Assembly (NCBI GenBank): GCA_021734865.1
Contig: JAIPIC010000003.1
Span: 1 to 54,065, forward strand
Direction of reading: 5' to 3'
DNA length: 54,065 nt
Source: Candidatus Woesearchaeota archaeon
GTDB lineage: Archaea; Nanobdellota; Nanobdellia; Woesearchaeales; JAIPIC01
The position numbers and the translations under genes were made by a program. The notes beneath the pieces were generated by a model. It ran no database searches. It was given only the letters and a program-made list of their open reading frames with translations, and was not told the origin of the DNA. Positions within the stretch are counted from its first letter, which is position 1. Every line of letters begins with the position of its first letter. Shown here piece by piece: positions 24,637 to 45,458 of the stretch.

Positions 24637-25311
24637 ATGATAAAAATTAGAAATCTCAGATACATCTATCCCGACAAAAGAATTGGCTTGGATGGTATAT
24701 CACTTAATATCAAAGAAGATATTACTGGGATAATTGGTCCTAATGGGGCAGGGAAAACAACATTGCTTCTTCACTTAAATGGTGTACTTCAACCTACTCA
24801 AGGGAGTCTGACGGTCGATGACATTAAAGTTAACCCCAAATCAATGTCAAAAATCAGAAAAAAAGTAGGTATCGTGTTCCAAAATCCAGATGACATGCTA
24901 TTTTCTCCTACAGTATATGAAGATGTGGCATTTGGTCCTACTAATCTTAAGATGAACAATATCCATGCAAGAGTACACTTAGCACTTGAACAAGTTGGAA
25001 TGGCTGAATATGAGACTCAAAATCCCCATCATATGAGCCTTGGGCAGAAAAAGAGAGTATCTCTAGCAGCTGTAATTGTGATGGAACCAGAATATATAAT
25101 ATTCGATGAACCCACAACACATCTTGATCCACAAGGGAAGCGTGAAATAATTAAACTGATCCTCTCATTAAATACAAAACGAATAATATCCACGCATGAC
25201 ATGAATCTACTTAAGTACTGTAATGAGATCCATATCTTGAATAATGGGAAATTAGTCCACTCATCACACAAAGTGAACAAAGCAACCTTGAAGGAATATG
25301 GACTTTTTTAA
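24637..25311 (+). CDS. cbiO: Energy-coupling factor ATPase CbiO/NikO
   Basis: A 224-aa ABC ATPase energising the nickel/cobalt importer. Walker A is GPNGAGKTT (about residues 33-41), the Q-loop is in VFQNPDD, the signature is SLGQKKRVSLA, Walker B is YIIFDEPT and the H-loop is STHD. It is shorter than average at the C-terminus. It lies 207 bp after cbiQ with an AT-rich TATA-like run between (about 24,540-24,560), so it may have its own promoter as well. Its end overlaps the end of hypB by 4 bp, convergently. Confidence 0.93.
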   Translation: MIKIRNLRYIYPDKRIGLDGISLNIKEDITGIIGPNGAGKTTLLLHLNGVLQPTQGSLTVDDIKVNPKSMSKIRKKVGIVFQNPDDMLFSPTVYEDVAFGPTNLKMNNIHARVHLALEQVGMAEYETQNPHHMSLGQKKRVSLAAVIVMEPEYIIFDEPTTHLDPQGKREIIKLILSLNTKRIISTHDMNLLKYCNEIHILNNGKLVHSSHKVNKATLKEYGLF

Positions 25312-26024
25312 TGATTATGGTGTTTTCTATTCTCTCTGACTTCTTTTATCTTTTTTGCCAACTTTTCATAACTTTGAGGATCATCTTTGCTTGTCCTTAC
25401 AACAACGATGTTTGGATTTACCTTTCTAATATCCCTTAAAAAGGATGATTCATCAAAATCTACATACTTTGCAAGATCGTATTTTGAGATTATGGATATT
25501 ACTGCATTCATGAAGATTATTGGGTATTTTGCTGGCTTGTCATGCCCCTCTGCCGTAGAACTTACTACAATATCCATGCTCTGTCCAAGCTTGACTCCTG
25601 CAGGACACACCAGATTTCCAACATTCTCGATAATAAGAAGATCCTTACCCTTCAGCTGTTGATCTTGTTTCATAGCCTTAATTGCTTGCATGATCATATG
25701 AGCATTAAGATGGCATCCTGAGTGCGTATTGATCTGATAGCTGTCAATCCCAATATCAGCTAGAAGTTTCGCATCAATATCAGATTCTAAGTCCCCCTGA
25801 ATGACAGCAATCTTGTCAACCCCCAGTACTTTACTTATTTCCCTAATAACAGTAGTCTTACCAGCTCCAGGAGCGCCTAATAAATTGATGCAGCAGATTC
25901 CATCATCATCCAGATCATGCCATATCATATGAGCAAGTCTATCGTTTTCTTGTGTAAGACTCTTATTGATTATTATCTCTTCAGACTTATTTCGGTTATC
26001 ATGACATCCACATTCTTCACACAT
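25308..26024 (-). CDS. hypB: Hydrogenase nickel incorporation GTPase HypB
   Basis: HypB hydrolyses GTP to deliver Ni to the large subunit with HypA. The 238 aa contain an N-terminal CEECGCHD cysteine/histidine patch, Walker A GAPGAGKTT (about residues 49-57), the GDLESDIDAK block, NTHSGCHLNAHM with the conserved metal-site Cys-His, and the ENVGNLVCPA switch. The C-terminus is charged and ends KHHNH. Last gene of the hypD-hypE-hypA-hypB run on the minus strand. Confidence 0.95.
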   Translation of the reverse strand: MCEECGCHDNRNKSEEIIINKSLTQENDRLAHMIWHDLDDDGICCINLLGAPGAGKTTVIREISKVLGVDKIAVIQGDLESDIDAKLLADIGIDSYQINTHSGCHLNAHMIMQAIKAMKQDQQLKGKDLLIIENVGNLVCPAGVKLGQSMDIVVSSTAEGHDKPAKYPIIFMNAVISIISKYDLAKYVDFDESSFLRDIRKVNPNIVVVRTSKDDPQSYEKLAKKIKEVRENRKHHNH

Positions 26025-26059
26025 TTTGACTCTCCTTATCTCATGTATTAAGATATATC

Positions 26060-26398
26060 TTATTTATTCACTTCTATTGAACATAGATTTATATCTTTTC
26101 CATTGATAATCTTTGTTTTTCCGGATTCACACTTCTGACAAAAAAGAATTGGTTGGTTTGAGATTCTGCTTTCTGAACCACATTCCTCACACTTAATTCT
26201 ACCATCAATTTCAATAACATTAAGCACACAATCTTTTAGATTATTATAATCCTTTTTAATAATATCAAAATAGAAGCCTATCGGTTCTGGTTTGAAACCT
26301 GAAAGACAACCAACTTCAATTGATGCACTTGAAATTGGGTTTTTAGATTCATCTAATAACATTCTGACAATCTCCTTTGTTATTGACAATTCGTGCAT
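26060..26398 (-). CDS. hypA: Hydrogenase nickel chaperone HypA
   Basis: 112 aa when started at ATG 26,398 (MHELSITKEIVRM), one base after the hypE stop. M1, H2 and E3 form the Ni site, which requires exactly this start; the longer open frame upstream would destroy it. The zinc domain has CEECGSE and FCQKCESG pairs (about residues 73-76 and 90-93). It delivers Ni to HypB and the large subunit. Confidence 0.95.
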   Translation of the reverse strand: MHELSITKEIVRMLLDESKNPISSASIEVGCLSGFKPEPIGFYFDIIKKDYNNLKDCVLNVIEIDGRIKCEECGSESRISNQPILFCQKCESGKTKIINGKDINLCSIEVNK

Positions 26399-26399
26399 T

Positions 26400-27371
26400 T
26401 TAACATATCCTAGGAACAATTCTGCCAGTTGGCGTGGGCATAATCCTTTTGCCCAGAGATGTCTTGACAATGACTTTTTTATCTGTAATATTAGCCACAG
26501 TACCCACAATCGAAGCTTGATCATTAAAGCTTTTTAGCCTGTCCAGAACTTTCATACTATTCTGTTCAGAGCATATGCATACCATCCTCCCTTCACTTGC
26601 AAGTTCATATAGATTAATTCCCAGCATATCAACAACAGTCTGCACTTCCTTCTTTGCAGGAATATCGATTTCATTTAGCACTAAATTAAATCCAGTTTTT
26701 TTAGCCATATCATTAAGAGCCGATGCCAGGCCACCACGTGTCGGGTCTTTAGCATACTTGATAAGTTCTCTAATAGAGTTCATCTCATCGACAAGCGGTC
26801 TTGAATCAGTGATTATATCTGTCTCGTAATCAAATCTCTTCGAAAGTAAGGCAACTGCATGTTCTCCCAGACCACCTGAAATTATAATTTTATCTCCTGG
26901 TACAATAGCATTACCGTCTAGAACACTCTCAGTTAAACCTACTCCGCTTGTATTGATTACAATCTTATCCAGCTTGCCCTTTTCCATAACCTTGGTATCA
27001 CCTGTCGCGACAGGGATTTTATATTTATTTGATAATCTCCCGATAGTCTCAGTAATTTTACTGAGTTTAAAATCCTCAAAGCCTTCTTCAATAATATAAC
27101 TGAGTGATAACCCTAAAGGTTTAGCACCCATCATTAATAAGTCGTTGACTGTTCCGCAGAATGCCAGATCGCCAATATTGCCTCCTGGAAAAAAGACTGG
27201 ATCAACAATGAATGAATCAGTAGTAAAGACCAAAAATCTACCATCACTAATATCTAAAATCGCAGAATCATCATAAGAATTTGTCCATTTTCCCCGGAAA
27301 AACTTGAAACTTTCAATTAGTTCCATCATTTCCTTTCCACCAGAACCCTGAGACAGGGAAATCTTGCCCAT
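26400..27371 (-). CDS. hypE: Hydrogenase maturation protein HypE
   Basis: HypE receives the carbamoyl group from HypF on its C-terminal Cys and dehydrates it with ATP to a thiocyanate, the donor of Fe-CN. The 323 aa end PTGRIVPRIC, the required PRIC terminus. The AIR-synthase-like fold shows GSGGKEMMELI, DDSAILD, FTTDSFIVDP and the GTVNDLLMMGAKP block. It is translated just upstream of hypA and has the HypD-like small gene 25 bp before it. Confidence 0.96.
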   Translation of the reverse strand: MGKISLSQGSGGKEMMELIESFKFFRGKWTNSYDDSAILDISDGRFLVFTTDSFIVDPVFFPGGNIGDLAFCGTVNDLLMMGAKPLGLSLSYIIEEGFEDFKLSKITETIGRLSNKYKIPVATGDTKVMEKGKLDKIVINTSGVGLTESVLDGNAIVPGDKIIISGGLGEHAVALLSKRFDYETDIITDSRPLVDEMNSIRELIKYAKDPTRGGLASALNDMAKKTGFNLVLNEIDIPAKKEVQTVVDMLGINLYELASEGRMVCICSEQNSMKVLDRLKSFNDQASIVGTVANITDKKVIVKTSLGKRIMPTPTGRIVPRIC

Positions 27372-27396
27372 ATTCAGTTGTAAGGAAGCATAGTAT

Positions 27397-27726
27397 TTAT
27401 TTCTTGCTGAATTTAAAGCTTATAGCACAATTGCCTTCCTCATGGGCCATTGATTTGTGCAATGGATTGTTTGGGGTACATTCCCTTTTGAATAATGGAC
27501 ATTCTGCTGGCTCACGAGCTCCCAGTAAAACATCATTACATTTGGCCTTATCGTTCTTTGGATCAAGAACTGATGATACTGGACGCATAATGAATTCATA
27601 TATATCAGAAATTAAAGGCACTTTCATTTTATCAAACCACTCATAGATAGTATCATTAGATATTAACTGGTGGATGGTAGTATTTATCCTTTTCGGAAAA
27701 AATACGGGTTTCATTGAAAATGTCAC
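27397..27726 (-). CDS. HypD C-terminal-domain-like small protein or fragment
   Basis: A 109-aa ORF whose last 50 residues resemble the HypD C-terminus: KCNDVLLG, ECPLFKRECTPNNP and EEGNCAISF line up with CRCGEVLKG, ECSLFGRACTPENP and KEGSCAISY of the intact hypD at 28,038. Four of the six C-terminal Cys are kept in spacing CX12CX6CX16C; the first Cys of CRC and the Cys of CMVS are lost. The first 55 residues do not visibly align. It sits between the R2 repeat and hypE. It is either a decaying partial duplication or a free-standing Fe-S domain. The start is uncertain (ATG 27,726 or internal Met). Confidence 0.6.
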   Translation of the reverse strand: MTFSMKPVFFPKRINTTIHQLISNDTIYEWFDKMKVPLISDIYEFIMRPVSSVLDPKNDKAKCNDVLLGAREPAECPLFKRECTPNNPLHKSMAHEEGNCAISFKFSKK

Positions 27727-27787
27727 AGGAATTATTCAGAACAAATATGTTCTGGATATTTGGAAATGTACATTTCTGAACATTTTA

Positions 27788-28025
27788 GGTGGGTTTAATA
27801 CCCCCCCTAGGGGTGAAATTTTTAATACAAAGAAATGCATATGCATTTCTTGTAGCATTTCTTGTACAAAAAGTGTACCATTTATCCGTCCCAAAAATTG
27901 CCTATAACTGAGAGCCCATCAATGCGGAGAAAAGCAAAGCTTTTCTTGTACACAAAAATGATTTACATTTTTATTGTACCCCATGCTTTAGCTTGGGTCA
28001 GGGCGAACGGCAATTATTGTTATAT
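27788..28025. repeat. Multi-hairpin repeat copy R2 (internal)
   Basis: The internal copy joins in one piece what the window ends carry separately. Its left part (palindrome CCCCTAGGGG, the GAAATGCATATGCATTTC hairpin at about 27,831-27,850, GTACAAAAAGTGTAC) matches 53,895-53,975. Its right part (27,888-28,025) matches 49-184. It lacks the hairpins found between those parts in R3/R1 (the ACTGATAAT/ATTATCAGT and CACACGAG/CTCGTATGTG stems). It ends 13 nt after the hypD stop and fills the 311-bp gap between hypD and the HypD-like fragment. Confidence 0.85.
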
Positions 28026-28037
28026 GGACAGTGGATC

Positions 28038-29069
28038 TTATTTGTACGCATAGCTAATTGCACAGCTTCCTTCTTTTGATACCATACATGGTCCTATTGG
28101 GTTCTCTGGAGTGCAGGCACGACCAAACAATGAGCATTCGTCAGGGTTGATTATCCCTTTTAGAACCTCACCACATCTACATGCTGAATTCTGCACTGTT
28201 TTTACAGTCATAATGACCTTAGAATACATTTTCTTAGCATCCAGTTCTTTATTTCTAATATTAAGTCCGGAATCTGGAATAATCCCCAGACCTCTCCATT
28301 CACTGTCAGCAGCATAAAAAACATCTTTTAATACTCGTTGTGCTTTTGGATTTCCTTCTTCTCTGACCCCTTCAGGATACGCATTGACGACTGTTTGTTT
28401 GCCTTCAGACAACATTTTACACAGAGCAAAAATTGATCTCATTACACGCTCAGCACTGAACCCAGCAATTGCTTGTGCTACTTTGAATCTCCTATAAGGC
28501 CTGACACCTATAATAGTTGACACATGCCCGGGATTAAGAAAGCCATCGATATGCACTTCACCTTCAAGCAGAGCTTCCATTGCAGGTGGGACCAGCTTAT
28601 GGCAGCTGTAGACACAGACCCCTTTTTGCAGCAGATATGCTGTCATCGGAGCTGTCGTCTCAAAACCAACCCCAAAAAAAACAATATTTGGGTGTTTTTC
28701 TCTGATGGCAAGAACCTCACTAGCTGAATAGACCTCGAATACATTTCCTTTCTCTGCTTTCACACTCTCAAGACTTGAATCAGTCCCAGGAACTCTCATC
28801 ACATCTCCATATGTGGCCACAGGAACACCGCTACGTGCAATACCGATAATATTATCAATATCTGACTGAGCAGAAACACACACAGGACAACCTGGTCCGG
28901 AGATTAACTTTAAGTTTTTAGGCAGAATATCTCTGATTCCATACTTTAAAATTATATTAGTGTGACCACCACAAATCTCCATAATGGTCCTATTCCCAAT
29001 ATTTAGACTCTTAATCTTTTGAAGATAATATTCAATGAGTTTGTTTTCATTTATCATATCTTCATTCAT
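28038..29069 (-). CDS. hypD: Hydrogenase Fe-CN-CO assembly protein HypD
   Basis: HypD with HypC builds the Fe(CN)2CO unit. 343 aa from ATG 29,069. Visible: MEICGGHTN (substrate Cys and His), GPGCPVCVS, the VATYGDVMRVPGT block, FGVGFETTAP, SCHKLVPPAM, and the C-terminal Fe-S domain CRCGEVLKG - ECSLFGRAC - CMVSKEGSC. The open frame continues to a TTG at 29,075, two codons earlier. hypC lies 64 bp upstream, and a repeat element lies just downstream. Confidence 0.95.
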   Translation of the reverse strand: MNEDMINENKLIEYYLQKIKSLNIGNRTIMEICGGHTNIILKYGIRDILPKNLKLISGPGCPVCVSAQSDIDNIIGIARSGVPVATYGDVMRVPGTDSSLESVKAEKGNVFEVYSASEVLAIREKHPNIVFFGVGFETTAPMTAYLLQKGVCVYSCHKLVPPAMEALLEGEVHIDGFLNPGHVSTIIGVRPYRRFKVAQAIAGFSAERVMRSIFALCKMLSEGKQTVVNAYPEGVREEGNPKAQRVLKDVFYAADSEWRGLGIIPDSGLNIRNKELDAKKMYSKVIMTVKTVQNSACRCGEVLKGIINPDECSLFGRACTPENPIGPCMVSKEGSCAISYAYK

Positions 29070-29133
29070 AATCAATCCCTTGAAATTTATTTTTCAGTTG
29101 GTTGGTGTACAACATAAGGACAATGTAACCAAA

Positions 29134-29364
29134 TTATTTCATAGATTCAATTCTTTCCAGATCCTTCTTTATTATTTTTAGAGATTCCTCAGCAGATTTC
29201 CTGTCCAGTTTTTCAATAACAAAACCTGCATGAATTAAAGTATAATCACCAACAGCTGGATTATCGATAAGAGAAGCATTGACAACTTTAAGAATTCCTC
29301 CGTAATCTACTTTAGCATTCTCTCCATTAAGTTCAATAATCTTTGCAGGTATCGCGTAGCACAT
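29134..29364 (-). CDS. hypC: Hydrogenase assembly chaperone HypC
   Basis: 76 aa beginning MCYAIPAKI; the N-terminal Cys2 (exposed after Met removal) binds the Fe fragment and the large subunit. A beta-barrel pattern with AKVDYGGILKVVNASLI and GDYTLIHAGFVIEKLD follows, with a charged helical tail. It lies one base after the protease gene stop, so it is in the hydrogenase operon. Confidence 0.95.
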   Translation of the reverse strand: MCYAIPAKIIELNGENAKVDYGGILKVVNASLIDNPAVGDYTLIHAGFVIEKLDRKSAEESLKIIKKDLERIESMK

Positions 29365-29365
29365 T

Positions 29366-29863
29366 TTATTCCTTCTGTTCTGCTTTCTTTATCTCTTCAT
29401 CTGATAATCTTTTGATTAAGCTAATAACATCTTTTTTAATTGTATCCATCTTGGATAATAAATCCTTGCTCAGCACGTCACTAAAAGCTTTGATATTACT
29501 TACTTTTATCCCAATAATATTAATTGAAGCCAAATTTGGCTTAAAAGCCCTTAAAATTGAAGCAGTCTGCTCAATTCCAAAGTCATGCTGTGAAACAACT
29601 GATAGATCTTGTGATAAATCATCTTCATTTAAAAGGACAACATCTCCAGGTTTTCCAGTTCCATCTGACAAACGTACAGCATCTACAATAATCAACTTGT
29701 CGTCATCCTCAACATAAGAGAGCATGTCAAATCCAATAACTCCTAATTCCATTAGTGTCAAATCCTTAAGAGCAGGATGATCAGCGAGTTCTTTATAAAG
29801 AGTTGGACCAATGCCGTCATCTCCTCCGAAAATATTGCCCACAAAAATAACTTTTACTGCCAT
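29366..29863 (-). CDS. Hydrogenase maturation protease
   Basis: A 165-aa endopeptidase of the HybD/HycI type, which clips the C-terminal extension from the Ni-loaded large subunit. The N-terminal GNIFGGDDGIG block (residues 9-19) supplies the first acidic metal ligand region, LIIVDAVRL the second (Asp), and SQHDFG the His. The C-terminus is charged. It sits between the large-subunit gene and hypC. Its substrate is presumably the neighbouring large subunit, which has a 15-residue tail. Confidence 0.92.
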   Translation of the reverse strand: MAVKVIFVGNIFGGDDGIGPTLYKELADHPALKDLTLMELGVIGFDMLSYVEDDDKLIIVDAVRLSDGTGKPGDVVLLNEDDLSQDLSVVSQHDFGIEQTASILRAFKPNLASINIIGIKVSNIKAFSDVLSKDLLSKMDTIKKDVISLIKRLSDEEIKKAEQKE

Positions 29864-29897
29864 AATAAAAATAAAAGAAATAAGATAATAAAAAGTT

Positions 29898-31409
29898 TTA
29901 TACGCTGGGTTCGAGATTTATCCTTTTTTTGTTCTGTCCCACTGCATGGATGGAACATGAAATGCACGGATCAAATCCCCTAACAATATGACCAATCTCA
30001 ACCATACTTTCATTATTTGCCAGCTGGACACCAATTAAGGCCTGCTCTATTGCTCCCTTCTGTCCTTTGGAATCAAGGGGTGATGCATTCCATGTCGTTG
30101 GAGTTATTATCTGATAAGACGTACATTTGCTATTATCAACATTTATCCAATGTCCAAGCGCTCCTCTTGGTGCTTCAACAAGGCCATATCCACTTCCTTT
30201 TTTAATCTCAGGAAATGGATAATAAGACGGTTTATTAAGATCTATCTCAGCAACCCACTCTACAAGTTTAGGGATTATTAGGACAGTCTCATGCAACCGT
30301 GCAATAGTCCGGGTAAATGTATTGACTCCAAATGCATTCACAAGGTCAGTAATCAGCGGATCTCCATTAACAAGCTGACGAGCTAGAGGACCAAGTTCAC
30401 ACACATTGCCAAAATATCTTGGCGCTTTGATCCATGAATAAGCACCTCTCTTTTTTGGATGCGGCCTAGTTACACCATTTATTGGTTTTCTCCATTGGTG
30501 TTCTGACTCATAATATCCGTGACTTGTATCTTCAGAGATATGGTTCTGGTCAAGAGCATGATACTTACCGTTTTGCAGATATCCGCTCTTAAACAACTTT
30601 GAACCGTCTTTATTCCTTCCAAATCCGTATGCTAAGAAATTATTAGGGGATTTCTCACCATATTTTTGCAGACCAATATCCTGACCATATCTTATCAGCA
30701 AGCCAACATCGGAATTTGCAAAAGACGGATTTCCCATCATTTTGTTAACATCATCTACAGATCTGATTTCCATGTACTCTTCAATTGATATCCCATTAAG
30801 TATTTTCTTCTCCACGAAAGCTTTGACTTCCTTAAGCATAGTATCAACTTTGATAAGCTCAATATGCTTTGGAATACTGCAAACACCACCAGGTATTGCA
30901 TGCATCGGATGAGGAAATTTACCACCAAACGTTGCAACAACGCTATGTAAAGGGATTCTTGCATTCTTAAGAATTGATTTAAGATGATCACTTTTTAGCG
31001 GATCAAATCTATTCAATACCTCATTATACAGTCCATGATGCCTATATGAATCATCCACAAGATCAGGACCCCACATAAAGTAAAAATGTGTGGCATGGCT
31101 AACGATAATATTTGCACCAAGTACAATGTCCCTGATTAGTTCAGCGTTTCTGGGTATCTTGAAATCTATCATCTGTTCGATAGCTTCAGCACCTGCTGTC
31201 CCATGAGAAACAGGGCAGACACCACAGCTTCTCTGTGAAAGCCTCATAGCATCAAATGGTTTTAGACCAATAAAAATATTCTCAAATCCCCTGTACACAA
31301 AACCTAAGGACTTCGCATTCGTAACCTTATTATTGCCGTCGATATTTACTTCTATGGCCATGTCCCCTTCAATCCTGTTTAGTGGATCAATAACTAATTT
31401 ATGAGTCAT
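29898..31409 (-). CDS. [NiFe] hydrogenase large subunit
   Basis: The catalytic subunit carrying the Ni-Fe(CN)2CO centre. N-terminal motif SQRSCGVCPVSHG (C62, C65, H69) and C-terminal motif DPCISCSIH (C482, C485, H488) give the four Ni-binding Cys; all are Cys, so no selenocysteine. A 15-residue tail follows H488 and is the expected cleavage peptide. The NRIEGDMAIEV start and YRGFENIF block are typical of uptake-type (group 1/2) enzymes. Length 503 aa. A GGAGGTG ribosome site precedes the ATG, which overlaps the small-subunit stop by 4 bp. The oxidised product's electron acceptor is not evident. Confidence 0.95.
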   Translation of the reverse strand: MTHKLVIDPLNRIEGDMAIEVNIDGNNKVTNAKSLGFVYRGFENIFIGLKPFDAMRLSQRSCGVCPVSHGTAGAEAIEQMIDFKIPRNAELIRDIVLGANIIVSHATHFYFMWGPDLVDDSYRHHGLYNEVLNRFDPLKSDHLKSILKNARIPLHSVVATFGGKFPHPMHAIPGGVCSIPKHIELIKVDTMLKEVKAFVEKKILNGISIEEYMEIRSVDDVNKMMGNPSFANSDVGLLIRYGQDIGLQKYGEKSPNNFLAYGFGRNKDGSKLFKSGYLQNGKYHALDQNHISEDTSHGYYESEHQWRKPINGVTRPHPKKRGAYSWIKAPRYFGNVCELGPLARQLVNGDPLITDLVNAFGVNTFTRTIARLHETVLIIPKLVEWVAEIDLNKPSYYPFPEIKKGSGYGLVEAPRGALGHWINVDNSKCTSYQIITPTTWNASPLDSKGQKGAIEQALIGVQLANNESMVEIGHIVRGFDPCISCSIHAVGQNKKRINLEPSV

Positions 31410-32299
31410 TGTGATTCACCTCCATAAATAACCCTCTTACGTGCATCAATCTCTGCCTGAACATCATCAGGAAGCGCTAGGGTCTCCTCATCGAAAGGAA
31501 CCATAGATACAGGAAATCCAGGATCAGTGCACCCAATACAAGGAGCACCAGATCGAGTACATGAAGACACGCCGTTCCATAGTCTTATGTTACAATCAGA
31601 ATTTGTGGTCCGACCCTTGCAGCCAAGTTTAGCAGCAAAGCATCCTACTTCTGTATAATTCTTTGCCCATATACCTCTCTCATGGAATTCACAATGCTTA
31701 CAACCCCTGTGGACTTTTTCTTCAAAATAGTCCTTAGGTCTATTAAATTTATCAAGAAGCACAGGTCTTCCAAGCCTAAATGATTGTAAAGTATTGATGA
31801 CCCAATCAGGGTGAGTAGGGCAACCGGGAATATTTATCACGGGAAAACCAAGACCTGCAATGTATTCCTCACCAAGGAAACCTCCTTTTGTATATCCATG
31901 CCATTGCAAACCAACAGCACCTGATTCATTAGGAGGAGCAGCCGGAACTCCGCCAAATGCAGCGCATGTACCAACAGCAATAGTTAACATTGACTTAGAA
32001 GCAAAGTTTCTCACCATGCCTCCGACATCCTGCCCTTCAAAATATTCTCCATATCCTTCTTTTGTCGGTACGGAACCTTCAAAAATAAATATATCAATAC
32101 GAATTTTGCCTTCCATACAGTCATTAAATAGTCTCTGAGCATCCCGTCCAAATATTGGACTAATAGTCGGATGATAAAGGAGATTAATTTTATTTCTCTC
32201 CAGAAACGTCAGAAAGTTTGGTCTTTCTGCATCAATGACCGACATGGAATCTCCATCACACGTCTGGCCTTGCATCCAGATCAAGTTAAGTTCTTCCAT
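31406..32299 (-). CDS. [NiFe] hydrogenase small subunit with CxxD proximal-cluster motif
   Basis: The electron-transfer subunit, 297 aa from ATG 32,299, preceded by GAGGTG. There is no twin-arginine signal and no C-terminal anchor, so it is cytosolic. The proximal cluster motif is TCDGDS: C14 with D17 where most enzymes have Cys (CxxC). This Asp ligand is known from group 1h-type (actinobacterial/Ralstonia AH-like) oxygen-insensitive enzymes. Other ligands: GTCAAFGG, IPGCPTHPDW, then CKHCEFH (distal), GCFAAKLGCKG, NSDC and the C-terminal CTRSGAPCIGC with TDPGFP. Group assignment is inference from the motif and lack of signal. Confidence 0.93.
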   Translation of the reverse strand: MEELNLIWMQGQTCDGDSMSVIDAERPNFLTFLERNKINLLYHPTISPIFGRDAQRLFNDCMEGKIRIDIFIFEGSVPTKEGYGEYFEGQDVGGMVRNFASKSMLTIAVGTCAAFGGVPAAPPNESGAVGLQWHGYTKGGFLGEEYIAGLGFPVINIPGCPTHPDWVINTLQSFRLGRPVLLDKFNRPKDYFEEKVHRGCKHCEFHERGIWAKNYTEVGCFAAKLGCKGRTTNSDCNIRLWNGVSSCTRSGAPCIGCTDPGFPVSMVPFDEETLALPDDVQAEIDARKRVIYGGESQ

Positions 32300-32335
32300 A
32301 ATAACACCTCTTTTCATTAATTTTGTTCAAAATAA

Positions 32336-39783: not shown

Positions 39784-39829
39784 CTCAAAACCTGAGTTAG
39801 AATATTATATTTAAGGTTTTGGTTGGAAA

Positions 39830-39970
39830 GGTAAAGTCAACTAACGTGGGTTTGTGTAAATTCTTCTTTGCAAAAAGGATTCATCGTTGGGTTTCTCCGT
39901 CGATGAATTTTGACATAAATCTTGCTTTTTACAAAGAAGAACCATTTAACCCACTTAAGTTGACTTTACC
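39830..39970. mobile_element. 141-bp palindromic MITE with 9-bp target duplication
   Basis: Terminal inverted repeats GGTAAAGTCAACT (39,830-39,842) and AGTTGACTTTACC (39,958-39,970) are perfect. The rest is also palindromic: TGGGTT/AACCCA, TTCTTCTTTG(C/T)AAAAAG against its complement, and GATTCATCG/CGATGAAT, with a small central loop. The 9-bp GGTTGGAAA flanks both ends (39,821-39,829 and 39,971-39,979) as a direct repeat, the mark of transposition. There is no transposase. The GGT start, CAACTTA-like right terminus and 9-bp duplication recall IS1-family ends; that assignment is inference. A 63-aa ORF across it is an artefact. Confidence 0.85.
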
Positions 39971-40022
39971 GGTTGGAAAAGATGGAAAAAAAGGAATAAA
40001 GAATAAATAATTGGTTTTTTTA

Positions 40023-41066
40023 CTAAAATACCTTTATCGGATCCTTATGATAGGCATCCATAGCTTTATCCTGTCTTGATTTTCCGACATAAGACATGAT
40101 CCTTTTGTGGAAACAGTCTACTGGATTGATACCTGCTTGGGCAAATAATTCTGGATAAAAACCAGGAAATGTGTTCTCATCAACCACAATATATCTGCCA
40201 TCATGTTTGGATTTTATCATATCAAACCCAACGACATCCAGAGCTAAAGCTCTTTGGGCTGCAAACGCGATATTTCTTTGCTCATTTGTTGGTACAACAA
40301 AGTCAACACATCCACCTATGCCACCTTCATCAAAAACCTTCCAGCCATCAACAAATTTCTCAAGTTGTTTTCTGTAACCGTAAGTCAAAGTATCTCCGAT
40401 TATTGTAGTGCTTGTCCAATTTGCGGGATCATTTTCATAAAATCTCTCTACAAAAATTGAGTCTCCTCCACCAGAAGCATTTAGCATACCATTACCAATG
40501 GTTCTTGTGTAGCCAACAACATCCCTTAGGGTTCCATGATCATCGACTTTTATTATTCCATGTCCAAAAGCACCAAGCCTTGGTTTTATCAGTACAGGAC
40601 CCCATTCATCCATTAGCTTTGCTATGTGCTCATATGATGATCTATCATTCTTGAAAACTGCATAATCAGCGACTGGTACGCCAGCTCTGTGAAGCGCATG
40701 GTGAGCCAGAGCTTTATCTAGACCTGCTCTCATCGCATTTGGATTGCTGATGACATATGTATCATCAACCATAGCATCAAGAACCTCAAGACAGTGTCCT
40801 GTTGTTCTTCGATCGATCTCACCATACCAAAAGAAAACATCATAATCATTTAGGCAATTATCACCAAGATATGCCTTGCCACTGACAATAACTGCCTGTC
40901 TGAAATCGACACAGTCATCAACTGTGACTCCTGGTTCGTTCCTCACTTTTTCAACTAATTCGTCTCTCACATCGCTTGGAATGGTTCCAGGATTGTCTAT
41001 CATTGATTTTGGCTTGGAATAATCTCTGCCAGGTACAAACATGCCTACTTTTGTTTTTAACATCAT
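40023..41066 (-). CDS. RimK/GshB-like ATP-grasp ligase
   Basis: A 347-aa ATP-grasp carboxylate-amine ligase. The N-terminal 130 residues form a pre-ATP-grasp domain. The ATP-grasp core follows: VLIKPRLGAFGHGIIKV (nucleotide-binding Lys and Gly-rich loop), a glycine-rich GNGMLNASGGGDSIFVE segment, and the metal site VGFDMIKSKHDGRYIVVDENTFPGF (D, E, N ligands). Its ATG overlaps the stop of the GCS2-like gene (ATGA), so the two ligases are coupled. It probably joins a second amino acid or peptide to the product of the first enzyme. Substrates cannot be read from sequence. Confidence 0.8.
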   Translation of the reverse strand: MMLKTKVGMFVPGRDYSKPKSMIDNPGTIPSDVRDELVEKVRNEPGVTVDDCVDFRQAVIVSGKAYLGDNCLNDYDVFFWYGEIDRRTTGHCLEVLDAMVDDTYVISNPNAMRAGLDKALAHHALHRAGVPVADYAVFKNDRSSYEHIAKLMDEWGPVLIKPRLGAFGHGIIKVDDHGTLRDVVGYTRTIGNGMLNASGGGDSIFVERFYENDPANWTSTTIIGDTLTYGYRKQLEKFVDGWKVFDEGGIGGCVDFVVPTNEQRNIAFAAQRALALDVVGFDMIKSKHDGRYIVVDENTFPGFYPELFAQAGINPVDCFHKRIMSYVGKSRQDKAMDAYHKDPIKVF

Positions 41067-42469
41067 AATCCCTCATATCTTTGATGACCTTTATGATCAT
41101 CTCTTGTAGTTTCCATATAATGATTCAGTGCATTGTAGACACCTGCTTTTGTAATACTATTTTTCATTACTCTTGATGGATTCATATTTCCTTCATAGCG
41201 ATCTCTAAGGATATGCAAGAAATCCAGACCAGAACCATCAATTGAACGTTTCGTAATATAAGCAATAGCTTTATCTGTCAAAAAATCAACCAGATCAGAC
41301 ATCTTGATTGTCTTATTATTAAATTTATAATGCCAGGTTACTTCTGCATCCATGCCGTGCTTTATAGCTTCTGAATAATTTTCCTGCAATGCATTTTCAG
41401 GAACCAGTTTTTGATTGAAATAATCTCTGGCCGACCCTTTTCCTAGCTCTTCATTTATCTCTTCTTGAAGCTGAAGGAGCGAAAAAACGTAAAAATTGCT
41501 AATCAAAGAATCCTCAAAAGCGGTCGGTTGTTTTGAAGCTGCTCTCATTTCGACTCGCCCAAAACCATCAGCACTTAACCTTACAGCTGGCCAATAGGTT
41601 GATAAATGGTTATGAAATGATGTAATTGGGTCATTTGGGTCATAACAAAATATTGGTTGGAAGCTTGCAACATCTGATACATAGTCAGATATGTCATTTA
41701 TGTAAGTACTCCTGAGTCCAATACGGGGTGTGTTACCTACACGTTCAGGATGTTGCAAATAGATTGCAGTTCGTTCATCTGAATTACCTGTCATCTGATT
41801 TGAATATATGGCTGAATTTCCAGATAATGCAGAAATGGGTGCTACCAACGCTAAACTGATATTGTATAGAGTTGTCATGTCATGTTCAGACATTGCTGTA
41901 ATGCTTGTATGTAAACCATTTAGCAGACCAGATGTGTGAATCTTTCCAGCAGATAGAGCATGACCATTCCATAATGTGGCTTGAACTGGTTTTTCCTTGC
42001 CTGATGCCATGTATGCAAAAATGAGGTCGCTTCTATGCCTACCAGACAAATATTCTTCGAGTTTTTGACTTGAACCAAATGTTGGAAAAAGACCAAGGGT
42101 CGATACTTTTAAACCTTCCTTGTCAGCTTCACCAAATAGTTTTTCTTCTCTTCTGACTACATCTGCCAGACAAACCGACGGTCCGTCAGCTACAGGAAAA
42201 GGGTCTGATACAACTTCAACCTGAAAATTCACTGCTTCTGGTACAAGATTTGCCTGTTTGATAACTCTGGATGCATCTGCTGGTTTTAGATTTTTATCCA
42301 TTAGATGATACTCAGATTCTACTCCGAATCTTTGAATATCAGGTGTGACACTCAAAGTATCTCTCATGTGATCCAGGACATTATTCATGGAACTAGTAAA
42401 CATCTCATGAGCATATGTTCTTTCTTCTGGACTCAAGGATTGAGTTTGATTTGTGATGTTCTTACCCAT
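41063..42469 (-). CDS. Glutamate-cysteine ligase-like (GCS2-type) enzyme
   Basis: A 468-aa protein resembling the carboxylate-amine ligase/GCS2 superfamily: FGVESEYHLMD near residue 48 (metal-binding Glu pair of the first strand), VNFQVEVVSDPFPVADG, TSITAMSEHD, a PISALSGNSAIYSN segment, and a late GFGRVEMRAASKQPTA strand typical of the family core (arginine and Glu). The family forms gamma-glutamyl or similar amide bonds with ATP. It is the first gene of a two-gene operon with an ATP-grasp ligase, the arrangement of a gshA/gshB-like two-step pathway. It is divergent from a double Lrp regulator across 96 bp. Confidence 0.75.
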   Translation of the reverse strand: MGKNITNQTQSLSPEERTYAHEMFTSSMNNVLDHMRDTLSVTPDIQRFGVESEYHLMDKNLKPADASRVIKQANLVPEAVNFQVEVVSDPFPVADGPSVCLADVVRREEKLFGEADKEGLKVSTLGLFPTFGSSQKLEEYLSGRHRSDLIFAYMASGKEKPVQATLWNGHALSAGKIHTSGLLNGLHTSITAMSEHDMTTLYNISLALVAPISALSGNSAIYSNQMTGNSDERTAIYLQHPERVGNTPRIGLRSTYINDISDYVSDVASFQPIFCYDPNDPITSFHNHLSTYWPAVRLSADGFGRVEMRAASKQPTAFEDSLISNFYVFSLLQLQEEINEELGKGSARDYFNQKLVPENALQENYSEAIKHGMDAEVTWHYKFNNKTIKMSDLVDFLTDKAIAYITKRSIDGSGLDFLHILRDRYEGNMNPSRVMKNSITKAGVYNALNHYMETTRDDHKGHQRYEGL

Positions 42470-42565
42470 ACTTAAAGGATATATTCCCTATAATATCAAT
42501 CCAAACACTTTTTTTAGTTGTAAATTTAGAAAATATTATATATTAAATGTAAATTTTACACCTTT

Positions 42566-43528
42566 ATGGGTAAGTTAACACTTTTTCAAGAGCAGATTGT
42601 TGGTTTTTTGTCGATTAATTCTAGAAAGAATCTATCTTCCATAAGAAAGAAATATAATCAAAGCCAGCAATATATCAACCGCACTGCGAACAAATTGATA
42701 ACAGATGGAGTCATCAAGGATTTCTATACTTTAGTGGATTATTCAAGATTTGATCTTTTGAATTTCAGATTATATATTCGGTTGAATTATCAAGATGAGC
42801 AGACATATCTGGAATTTGTGGAATACCTTAAACAGATGCCAGAATCAAGTTACATAGCCAGTATTGGAGGAACATTTGATATTATCTGTACTTTTTTGTG
42901 TCCCAATGCATCATATTTTAATAAAACCTTGCTGGGGCTCCTTTCAAATTTTTCTAGACTAATTATGGATTATACAGTACTGACAACAATTGTATTGAGG
43001 AGTTTTGCATGGAAAAAGATCACTAAAGATCCTCATGAGATAATTCTTGGTGGTGACAGAGAACCAATTGTATTAAGCGAGATGGACAAAAGAATCGTAT
43101 CAATATTCTCAAAACATCCTAGGAAAAGTTGTCTTGAAATCTCTAGAGAGATTGGTGTATCTGCGAAAACAGTGATATTAAGGCTAAAAAATTTGCATAG
43201 GCAAGAAATAATTCTTGGTTTTCGTCCAGTATTAAATATTCCAAATACTAGAATGAATCTGATGATGGTAAAATATCATAATGCAACAGCTGGTAAACTT
43301 AATAATTTTACAAAATACCTAGTATCTCATCCAAATGTACAGTATATAGTGAAGACTATCGGTGAATGGAACATAGAAATCCAATTCTTGACAGATACTG
43401 GACAAGAATATAAAACCCTTGAACGAGAGATTAGAATGAAATTCATAGAAATAATACAGGAAGTTAATTCAATTCCAGTATATGAAACTTACAAGATGTC
43501 ATATTACCCTGGTAACGAGGTAAATTGA
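42566..43528 (+). CDS. Tandem-fused Lrp/AsnC-type regulator (HTH-RAM-HTH-RAM)
   Basis: A 320-aa regulator about twice the length of Lrp. The first half has a winged helix (about 1-55) plus a RAM-like beta-alpha sandwich (about 60-145, YIASIGGTFDIICTF). The second half repeats this: DKRIVSIFSKHPRKSCLEISREIGVSAKTVILRLKNL is a clear HTH (about 173-205) followed by a second RAM domain (YIVKTIGEWNIEIQF). A fused dimer could bind asymmetric DNA sites. A TATA-like ATATTATATATTAAAT (about 42,533-42,548) lies before it. It is co-transcribed with the channel gene (TTGA overlap) and faces the ligase operon, its likely target. Confidence 0.8.
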   Translation: MGKLTLFQEQIVGFLSINSRKNLSSIRKKYNQSQQYINRTANKLITDGVIKDFYTLVDYSRFDLLNFRLYIRLNYQDEQTYLEFVEYLKQMPESSYIASIGGTFDIICTFLCPNASYFNKTLLGLLSNFSRLIMDYTVLTTIVLRSFAWKKITKDPHEIILGGDREPIVLSEMDKRIVSIFSKHPRKSCLEISREIGVSAKTVILRLKNLHRQEIILGFRPVLNIPNTRMNLMMVKYHNATAGKLNNFTKYLVSHPNVQYIVKTIGEWNIEIQFLTDTGQEYKTLEREIRMKFIEIIQEVNSIPVYETYKMSYYPGNEVN

Positions 43529-44433
43529 CTAAACTGTTAAACATGAAAAAACCAATTAATCTTAAAAGACTAAGAACACTTCCAGATAGTTTTATCTATG
43601 AGAAAAAACAGCAAAAGTTGATTCATAGGATATATGATCGTTTCAGCATTCGAAATATATTCTTGGTATGGGTATTCACGCTGATAGGATTTGGTCTAGT
43701 ATATTTCTTTCTTCAGTCAGATACAGCATACCTTAAAATGACTCAAGTAAATACAACACCAACATTCATGGATCATATATATTTCTCATTTATCACAGCT
43801 ACATCGACTGGGTTTGGTGACGTAATACCAAAAGGATTCTTTAAAACAATAGCAATATTTGAAGTAATAATTGGATTATCCCTTTTTGCGATGGTTACAT
43901 CTAAACTAGTATCAATTAAACAAGATGCAATATTAGGTGAAATATATGAAATTGCATATTATGAAAAAATCAGCCGACTTAGAAATGCCCTATATCTTTC
44001 AAGAGTTGACATCCAAAAAATAAGGAAACAGATAAAAGATGAAGAAATAACAGAAAAAGATCTGACTGAAATATGGATGCCATTAAGCCAGTTGCGAAAT
44101 ACAATAGAAGAAGTGAAAACAACAGTCGCGGCGGATAAATCCTCAGATATTCTAAAAAAAGTGGACGAACTAGATATTGAACTAATTCTCTATAGCGTTA
44201 GCTTATCTCTAAAAAGGGTCCTTGGTTTGTTAAATACAATGGGAAACAGAGGAATTGACTGGAAATCGGATTATATAGTTAGAATACTTCAAAACATGCT
44301 TTCTGAGTCTAGAGAGATATGCCAATATTATAAAAAAGTGGGATCAACAGAAAAAATACTAAATAATGTTAAAGATATCGAAATAATGGTAAATGATATA
44401 ACTACCAAGTTTTTCTATGAAATCCTCAAATGA
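43525..44433 (+). CDS. Potassium-channel-like protein (2TM, TSTGFGD filter)
   Basis: 302 aa. First membrane helix at about residues 45-63, a pore helix, then the selectivity filter TATSTGFGD (91-99) matching the K+ channel T-x-G-(Y/F)-G-D, then a second helix (about 105-127). The C-terminal 170 residues are a helical cytosolic domain with no Rossmann (RCK/KTN) glycine motif, so the gating ligand is unclear. The start is a TTG overlapping the previous stop (TTGA); ATG 43,543 is an alternative. It ends in a 4-bp ATGA overlap with mnmH. Confidence 0.82.
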   Translation: MTKLLNMKKPINLKRLRTLPDSFIYEKKQQKLIHRIYDRFSIRNIFLVWVFTLIGFGLVYFFLQSDTAYLKMTQVNTTPTFMDHIYFSFITATSTGFGDVIPKGFFKTIAIFEVIIGLSLFAMVTSKLVSIKQDAILGEIYEIAYYEKISRLRNALYLSRVDIQKIRKQIKDEEITEKDLTEIWMPLSQLRNTIEEVKTTVAADKSSDILKKVDELDIELILYSVSLSLKRVLGLLNTMGNRGIDWKSDYIVRILQNMLSESREICQYYKKVGSTEKILNNVKDIEIMVNDITTKFFYEILK

Positions 44434-45458
44434 CAAAACAAGAATTTCCAATCAAAATTGAACCCGCAGATGCACTCTTGATGCCAAAAGCATTATTTAT
44501 TGATATGCGTAGCCCTATGGAATTTGGACATTCTACAATACCAGGAGCAATAAACATGCCTATGTTTACAGACGAAGAGAGGGCCACTGTTGGATTGACA
44601 TACAAACAAAAAGGACAGAAAGAAGCAGTTCTCATTGGTATGGATTATTTTGCACCTAAATTACCTGATTATTTTCGACAAATTCACGAATTAAATAAAA
44701 AAAACCGGTTAATTATATTCTGCGCTCGAGGAGGTATGAGATCTGGTTCAATGGCAGAATTATGTAACAGTACAGGCTTTAGAGTACACCAGTTGTCTGG
44801 AGGGTATAAAGCGTATCGTAAACACATCAATAGATATTTACATGATTGGAGCACAAAAAAACCTATATTTGTGCTCGATGGTCTGACAGGTACAGGTAAA
44901 ACTCGTATTTTACAGGACCTAAAAAACAGCCTAGATTTGGAAGGTCTGGCACAGCACAGAAGCTCACTTCTTGGAGCAATAGGGCTAAAACCAGTCACAC
45001 AGAAAATGTTTGATTCTAGATTATATGATAGGCTTATTGAACTTGAAGATGCAGATTACATAATTATAGAGGGAGAAAGCAGAAAGGTAGGGTTTGTCCA
45101 GATGCCAGACTCCCTATATAAGACAATACTGAAAGGTATCCATATTAATGTTACAGCATCTATGGATACTAGGATCAAATTTCTTGTAGAAGACTATACA
45201 CAAGTCAAGCCTAAAGAAATTGCTGACAGGGTTGCATTGCTGACAAAAAAGCTCTCAAAGCAAGATATAAAAGAAATAAATGCACACATCATGAAGAAAG
45301 ACTACAAAACTGCATTTCCGATGATCCTTGAAAAATATTACGATCCACTGTACAAGCATACTGTTGATAGAAAAGAATATTCATTTTCAGTTGAACATGA
45401 GAATACAGATAAAGCTATTAAGAGTATTGTTTCTTTTATTCGAAAACACATGAAATAG
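44430..45458 (+). CDS. mnmH: tRNA 2-selenouridine/geranyl-2-thiouridine synthase MnmH (SelU)
   Basis: A 342-aa fused protein. The rhodanese domain (1-135) has the catalytic C98 in IIFCARGGMRSGS, the same block as E. coli YbbB. The ATPase domain has P-loop GLTGTGKT (151-158), then the SSLLGAIG and EGESRKVG blocks. The enzyme replaces the 2-thio group of wobble 2-thiouridine with selenium via a geranylated intermediate, using selenophosphate. From memory, archaeal SelU is usually split into two proteins, so a one-piece form here suggests transfer. selD is not in the window (the related gene at 26.4 kb is hypE). Confidence 0.9.
   Translation: MTKQEFPIKIEPADALLMPKALFIDMRSPMEFGHSTIPGAINMPMFTDEERATVGLTYKQKGQKEAVLIGMDYFAPKLPDYFRQIHELNKKNRLIIFCARGGMRSGSMAELCNSTGFRVHQLSGGYKAYRKHINRYLHDWSTKKPIFVLDGLTGTGKTRILQDLKNSLDLEGLAQHRSSLLGAIGLKPVTQKMFDSRLYDRLIELEDADYIIIEGESRKVGFVQMPDSLYKTILKGIHINVTASMDTRIKFLVEDYTQVKPKEIADRVALLTKKLSKQDIKEINAHIMKKDYKTAFPMILEKYYDPLYKHTVDRKEYSFSVEHENTDKAIKSIVSFIRKHMK

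Follow-up and report, generated by a model that had tools for sequence, protein, structure and literature searches.

An Lrp-linked GCS2/ATP-grasp ligase pair in the Woesearchaeales with a possible role in K+ and osmotic balance

The window analysed here is a 54,065-nucleotide stretch of DNA from a Candidatus Woesearchaeota archaeon of the order Woesearchaeales (contig JAIPIC010000003.1). It contains two overlapping genes encoding a GCS2-type carboxylate-amine ligase and an ATP-grasp amide ligase. A divergent operon encodes a fused double Lrp/AsnC regulator, a two-transmembrane (2TM) K+-channel-like protein, and MnmH. Sequence comparison bears out the family assignments, the two-ligase unit, and the recurrent divergent Lrp. 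The ligases are likely to form a unit under Lrp control. The fuller statement, that the locus directs, under Lrp control, the synthesis of a small glutamyl amide or peptide serving K+/osmotic balance, with MnmH as a passenger, is tentative, with somewhat less than an even chance of holding throughout.

The genome (G000; 2.0 Mb in 99 contigs, the window being C78) is 87% complete. Families were assigned using Pfam and NCBIfam models with curated cut-offs. The ATP-grasp subfamily was compared across 338 genomes of the order; the channel, MnmH, SelD, and Lrp were compared across 60 genomes.

The ligase pair and its divergent regulator

Members of the window's ATP-grasp subfamily (E < 1e-38) were found in four of the 338 genomes: the window's own, G359, G399, and G381, the last three with 32-34% identity to the window protein. 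In three of the four, the gene overlaps a GCS2 gene on the same strand, and both gene orders occur; G381 has the ATP-grasp gene without GCS2. In the tree, the GCS2 proteins of G359 and G399 fall in a clade other than the window's; thus, this ATP-grasp type partners GCS2 across clades. An adjacent ATP-grasp gene was found at 12 of the 56 GCS2 genes of the sampled genomes, always on the same strand. By these counts, the ligase pairing exceeds chance. The overlaps in three of four subfamily members support the proposal of the initial annotation that two amide ligases act as a unit.

The regulator contains HTH_24 and HTH_AsnC domains and two segments that match the AsnC ligand-binding domain, which places it in the Lrp/AsnC family. 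It is 38% identical over 287 aa to a double regulator of G163, and the regulators of the window, G163, and G439 form one clade (SH-aLRT 98). A double Lrp gene is adjacent to five of the 56 GCS2 genes (0.1 expected): those of the window, G439, G228, G468, and G310, the last four loci having come from a PF04107 search blind to neighbours. All five are head-to-head with GCS2, with gaps of 85-151 bp. The P value of this divergence is about 1e-7, which ignores the shared ancestry of the genomes. Judged by the trees of GCS2 and Lrp, at least two independent associations remain. A sixth divergent double Lrp was found in G163, where only a glutamate-decarboxylase-like gene lies between Lrp and GCS2 (TIGR01788, 279 bits, below the cut-off of 380; glutamate decarboxylase in the PDB, E 4e-57). 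The six linked regulators are split over two Lrp clades, of which three of three and three of five members are linked.

The genes downstream of the Lrp-linked GCS2 genes vary. At four of the six loci an ATP-grasp gene follows directly, and three types are represented: the window type in the window, a glutathionylspermidine-synthase/CP_ATPgrasp-like type in G468, and the GshB family, which is clear in G228 and weaker in G310. In G439, the downstream gene is an FGase. Therefore, the regulator-plus-ligase layout appears to recur with exchanged ligases. The suggested tie between the ligases and a double Lrp agrees with this recurrent head-to-head layout in six genomes. The spacer of the window contains an imperfect palindrome (42516-42563) with an AT-rich core, which is a candidate Lrp operator. 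A double Lrp akin to that of the window is also present in G156 (L047, 7205-10891), divergent from an Asp/Glu-racemase-like gene and two ATP-grasp-like genes, as read from the translations.

The gene layout described in the initial annotation was recovered (Table 1). All five open reading frames (ORFs) are present at the same coordinates in the ORF list of the window. The overlaps between the ATP-grasp and GCS2 genes, between the double Lrp and channel genes, and between the channel and MnmH genes are 4 bp each. The Lrp/channel overlap depends on translation of the channel starting from the TTG codon at 43525; if it started from the first downstream ATG, at 43543, a 14-bp gap would separate the two genes.

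Table 1. Features of the ligase locus and the divergent operon in the window
Feature	Position	Strand	Basis or remark
ATP-grasp amide ligase, RimK/MptN-like, 347 aa	40023..41066	-	second gene of ligase operon; Pfam RimK, TIGR00768, subfamily profile
GCS2-type carboxylate-amine ligase, 468 aa	41063..42469	-	Pfam GCS2, clade profile, G163 homologue
Divergent promoter region, 96 bp	42470..42565	no strand	head-to-head layout, palindrome
Fused double Lrp/AsnC regulator, 320 aa	42566..43528	+	Pfam domains, G163 identity, tree
2TM K+-channel-like protein, 302 aa	43525..44433	+	Ion_trans_2, filter TGFGD
MnmH, tRNA 2-selenouridine synthase family	44430..45458	+	TIGR03167, NF008750; probable passenger

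Relationships of the ligases to known systems

By profile comparison, the GCS2 protein is a member of the glutamate-cysteine ligase (GCL) superfamily. It matches Pfam GCS2 (PF04107) with 25.2 bits (cut-off 21), and no solved structure was matched by its sequence alone. The profile of its clade matches plant GCL (6gmo/2gwc; E 2e-8, about 350 residues) and YbdK (E 4e-6), and it aligns to a second GCS2 clade from the same order with 97% probability. The initial annotation had named membership of a different superfamily as an outcome that would refute its proposal; these matches do not show one. The residues E51, E53, E307, and R309 are invariant, which would fit an intact amide ligase. No NCBIfam equivalog of GCL proper (EC 6.3.2.2) came near its cut-off (best 28 bits versus 371). 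The YbdK/carboxylate-amine ligases (TIGR02050) belong to the same superfamily and likewise have, in their C-terminal half, a conserved E-x-R motif; however, the window protein scores 26.6 bits where the cut-off is 176, is 468 aa long, and has ATP-grasp and Lrp partners. Its sole close relative is the G163 homologue (38% identity). Single-sequence scans of genome contigs, viral contigs, phages, and plasmids found no relative, and a two-sequence profile recovered only G163, a 'Nanoarchaeota archaeon' metagenome-assembled genome (JAHJBD010000091.1).

The ATP-grasp protein is, on its profile matches, RimK/MptN-like rather than GshB-like. It matches Pfam RimK (28 bits, cut-off 21) and, below the cut-off of 143.4, TIGR00768 (55.7 bits, E 5e-15); no match to PF02955 was found up to E 1, which places it outside the GshB family. 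The subfamily profile finds the structures of RimK, LysX, and other alpha-glutamate ligases. Like RimK, MptN, LysX, and CofF, the subfamily has an ATP-grasp domain that retains the conserved N-TFPG metal-site motif at its end. However, the window protein lies far under all equivalog cut-offs, and none of the NCBIfam models of the RimK/MptN/LysX alpha-glutamate ligases was matched over its curated cut-off. It also differs in its own N-terminal region and in its coupling to GCS2.

The initial annotation saw the logic of gshA/gshB in this pair. The resemblance holds for the gene arrangement, in which a GCS2-superfamily ligase gene overlaps an ATP-grasp ligase gene in one operon. It does not extend to the proteins: the window GCS2 is very remote, and the label is imperfect because the ATP-grasp protein is nearer to RimK/MptN/LysX than to GshB. 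Haloferax HVO_1668 is an archaeal example of GshA, and GshA-family hits in DPANN, with no archaeal GshB hits, were reported in the same review (PMC7278568). A GshB-like ATP-grasp gene was observed directly downstream of GCS2 in G228 (L138, 4441-6439) and G387 (L136, 4306-6343). The G228 protein matches PF02955 (E 1e-36) and glut_syn (E 1.5e-41). A gshA/gshB-like operon in this archaeal order, with a gshA/gshB-like pair at G228, is plausible from these matches.

GCS2/ATP-grasp amidoligase operons have reportedly been predicted in bacteria by the Aravind group. The bacterial operons and those described here are alike in mixing amide ligases, glutamine amidotransferases (GATases), and peptidases in small operons; the latter differ in being archaeal, in the recurrent divergent double Lrp, and in the K+/osmotic genes of some loci. 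PMC2922099 also gives a summary of ligase mix-and-match. No paper on GCS2 and ATP-grasp in these archaea was found in the literature. Two further arrangements were observed in the order. In one family of genomes (f10), an operon of GCS2, a C39-like protein, and a class-II GATase recurs (L133, L143, L148, L149, L172, L178, and L179), with ATP-grasp also present in some loci. In G254 (L024, 3967-9631), a single Lrp, a class-I aminoacyl-tRNA synthetase (aaRS)-like protein, GCS2, an enolase-type epimerase, a GATase, and an EamA-like exporter lie together, with names mostly read off translations; the product is likely an exported modified peptide.

K+ transport genes, MnmH, and osmotic neighbours

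The channel-like protein matches Ion_trans_2 (46 bits, E 5e-12), its sole domain over cut-off, and has the K+ filter TGFGD and a helical C-terminus, which is consistent with a 2TM K+ channel. Its relatives occur in 24 of the 60 genomes in unrelated contexts, and the G163 channel lies on a different contig from GCS2. MnmH exceeds the cut-offs of TIGR03167 (317 bits) and NF008750 (357 bits). It was found over cut-off in nine of the 60 genomes, and reading of the flanks in the other genomes found neither the channel nor MnmH beside each other, Lrp, or GCS2. No SelD over cut-off was found in G000 (87% complete) or in any of the 60 genomes; the two weak SelD matches in G000 include the HypE-like gene of the window. 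Because MnmH is located elsewhere in the other eight genomes and no SelD passes the cut-off, it is probably a passenger in the operon, and a contribution of selenium or sulfur chemistry by MnmH was rejected. Given the unrelated contexts of the channel, the strict form of the proposal in which it is a conserved partner was also rejected. The ligases occur largely without the channel and MnmH, a pattern that the initial annotation had named as one that would refute its proposal. The genomes with MnmH but apparently no SelD (no match over cut-off) include the single-contig genome G040, G149, and others (L073-L081).

A K+ transport tie was found in a second genome that has the same ATP-grasp subfamily. 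In G399, the ATP-grasp and GCS2 genes are followed, after 85 bp, by a Kef-like CPA2 antiporter gene and an overlapping TrkH gene. The antiporter (393 aa) scores 72-80 bits with the KefB and KefC models, whose cut-offs are over 750, and Na_H_Exchanger was its only domain match. Glutathione adducts gate Kef K+ efflux by acting on the KTN domain (PMC10224563). The likeness to Kef is that ligases of the glutamyl-peptide type adjoin K+ transport, including the CPA2 antiporter. However, no KTN/RCK sensor was matched in the window channel or in the G399 antiporter, so the literal parallel drawn in the initial annotation fails.

In G283 and G276, the gene order is two MscS genes, TreT, GCS2, an AI-2E-type transporter, and a related CPA2 antiporter. 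The TreT-type trehalose synthase of G283 matches PF21269 (E 6e-57). The two loci (L168, 601-10107, and L162) look like an osmoadaptation island.

Other features of the window were also observed. A long, near-perfect hairpin lies between topA and the ATP-grasp gene (39828-39974; -61 kcal/mol, z -7.3 versus shuffles; single copy in the window). It matches no Rfam family and is a candidate RNA or palindromic element. The region 25308-32317 looks, from its translations, like NiFe hydrogenase subunits and maturation genes (HypB/HypE/HypD-like), with cobalt/nickel transport genes beside it.

Proposed function and alternative explanations

The substrates, bond type, regulation, and osmotic role that we infer are as follows. 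GCS2 would use ATP to activate the carboxylate of glutamate and couple it to either an amine or an amino acid. A further residue would be added by the ATP-grasp protein, giving a small amide or peptide that contains glutamate. The double Lrp would bind the 96-bp spacer and, on sensing an amino acid or this product, switch both the ligase operon and its own operon. The cell would most likely use the product for K+/osmotic balance, accumulating it together with K+ as an organic anion or solute. Because the regulator probably shares a transcript with the K+ channel in the window genome, synthesis of the product and K+ flux may be under joint control. Archaea are known to balance K+ with organic anions, and N-acetylglutaminylglutamine amide is a peptide osmolyte (PMC1224877). 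A small glutamine/glutamate peptide for osmotic balance is thus a known idea, but that osmolyte is bacterial and is made by other enzymes.

Six GCS2 loci have one or more MscS genes within 5 kb, with eight hits versus 1.15 expected from the genome-wide MscS count. A near-versus-far test within the GCS2 regions showed no MscS enrichment (4/203 versus 5/342). Since MscS genes also lie three to six genes from GCS2, a 40-region control and the genome-wide MscS count, both chosen after that result, were used instead. Several points weigh against the osmotic explanation. Ion-transport genes were 10/207 near GCS2 versus 0/543 in the 40-region control, which is biased and partly circular because it was seeded from the case loci. 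Among the ion-transport tests, only the MscS count is unbiased; G283 and G276 belong to the same genus, and related genomes are not independent. In the GCS2 clade of the window (the window and G163), the K+ link is found in the window only. The osmotic neighbours are mostly at loci of another GCS2 clade, so for the window the osmotic explanation is no more than suggestive. The GATases, epimerase, exporter, or deacylase of other GCS2 operons of the order suggest other products. The AlphaFold models of both ligases (pLDDT 35 and 37) were too poor for a fold search.

The K+ link might also be due to chance, if the double Lrp is an ordinary local regulator and the channel and MnmH are unrelated transcript-mates. 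Related Lrp proteins were found in 51 of 60 relatives, and the channel and MnmH are in unrelated contexts elsewhere, whereas K+ transport genes adjoin the pair in two of the three pair-holding genomes (the window and G399). Such a coincidence is quite possible, though less likely than not; it bears on the K+ part alone and may hold alongside the ligase part of the proposed function. The product may instead be a thiol, if GCS2 makes gamma-glutamylcysteine, the ATP-grasp protein makes a glutathione-like tripeptide, and the thiol state controls K+ flux. The profile match of the window GCS2 to plant GCL, the GshB-family ATP-grasp in the same Lrp-GCS2-ATP-grasp layout of G228, and the Kef-like antiporter beside the G399 pair would fit this pathway. 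It is nevertheless unlikely, given the RimK/MptN-like rather than GshB-like ATP-grasp of the window and the lack of a match, in the channel and the 393-aa antiporter, to KTN, the adduct site (PMC10224563).

Similarly unlikely is a secondary metabolite or exported small peptide, made by a mix-and-match amidoligase island with an accidental K+ channel neighbour. Neither an exporter nor a tailoring gene was observed next to the pairs of the window, G359, or G399, and the G399 pair adjoins K+ transporters instead. What speaks for export is found across the order, where GCS2 occurs with varied ATP-grasps, class-I and class-II GATases, a C39-like protein, deacylases, and FGase, and in G254, where it occurs with an epimerase, an aaRS-like protein, and an EamA exporter. 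The ATP-grasp protein could also modify either a protein or a cofactor, as RimK, MptN, and CofF do, with a loose tie to GCS2. Its best matches are the RimK/MptN/LysX/alpha-glutamate ligases, and the G381 gene stands without GCS2; the overlap with GCS2 in three of four subfamily members, in both gene orders, makes this role very improbable.

The chemistry of small thiols and solutes in DPANN archaea is almost unexplored. A layout of a regulator and two ligases that recurs in several families within one order points to a pathway dedicated to a small molecule, with concrete gene sets now at hand for expression. More broadly, though this is doubtful, DPANN archaea of this order might achieve K+/turgor control with glutamyl peptides that act as counter-ions or solutes and are made by interchangeable GCS2/ATP-grasp islands under an Lrp switch, which would be an undescribed archaeal osmoadaptation pathway. 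If the K+/osmotic tie is true, archaea would have a new way of balancing salt by a made-to-order peptide, and a bacterial type of ligase mix-and-match would extend to cells believed to be poor in biosynthesis.

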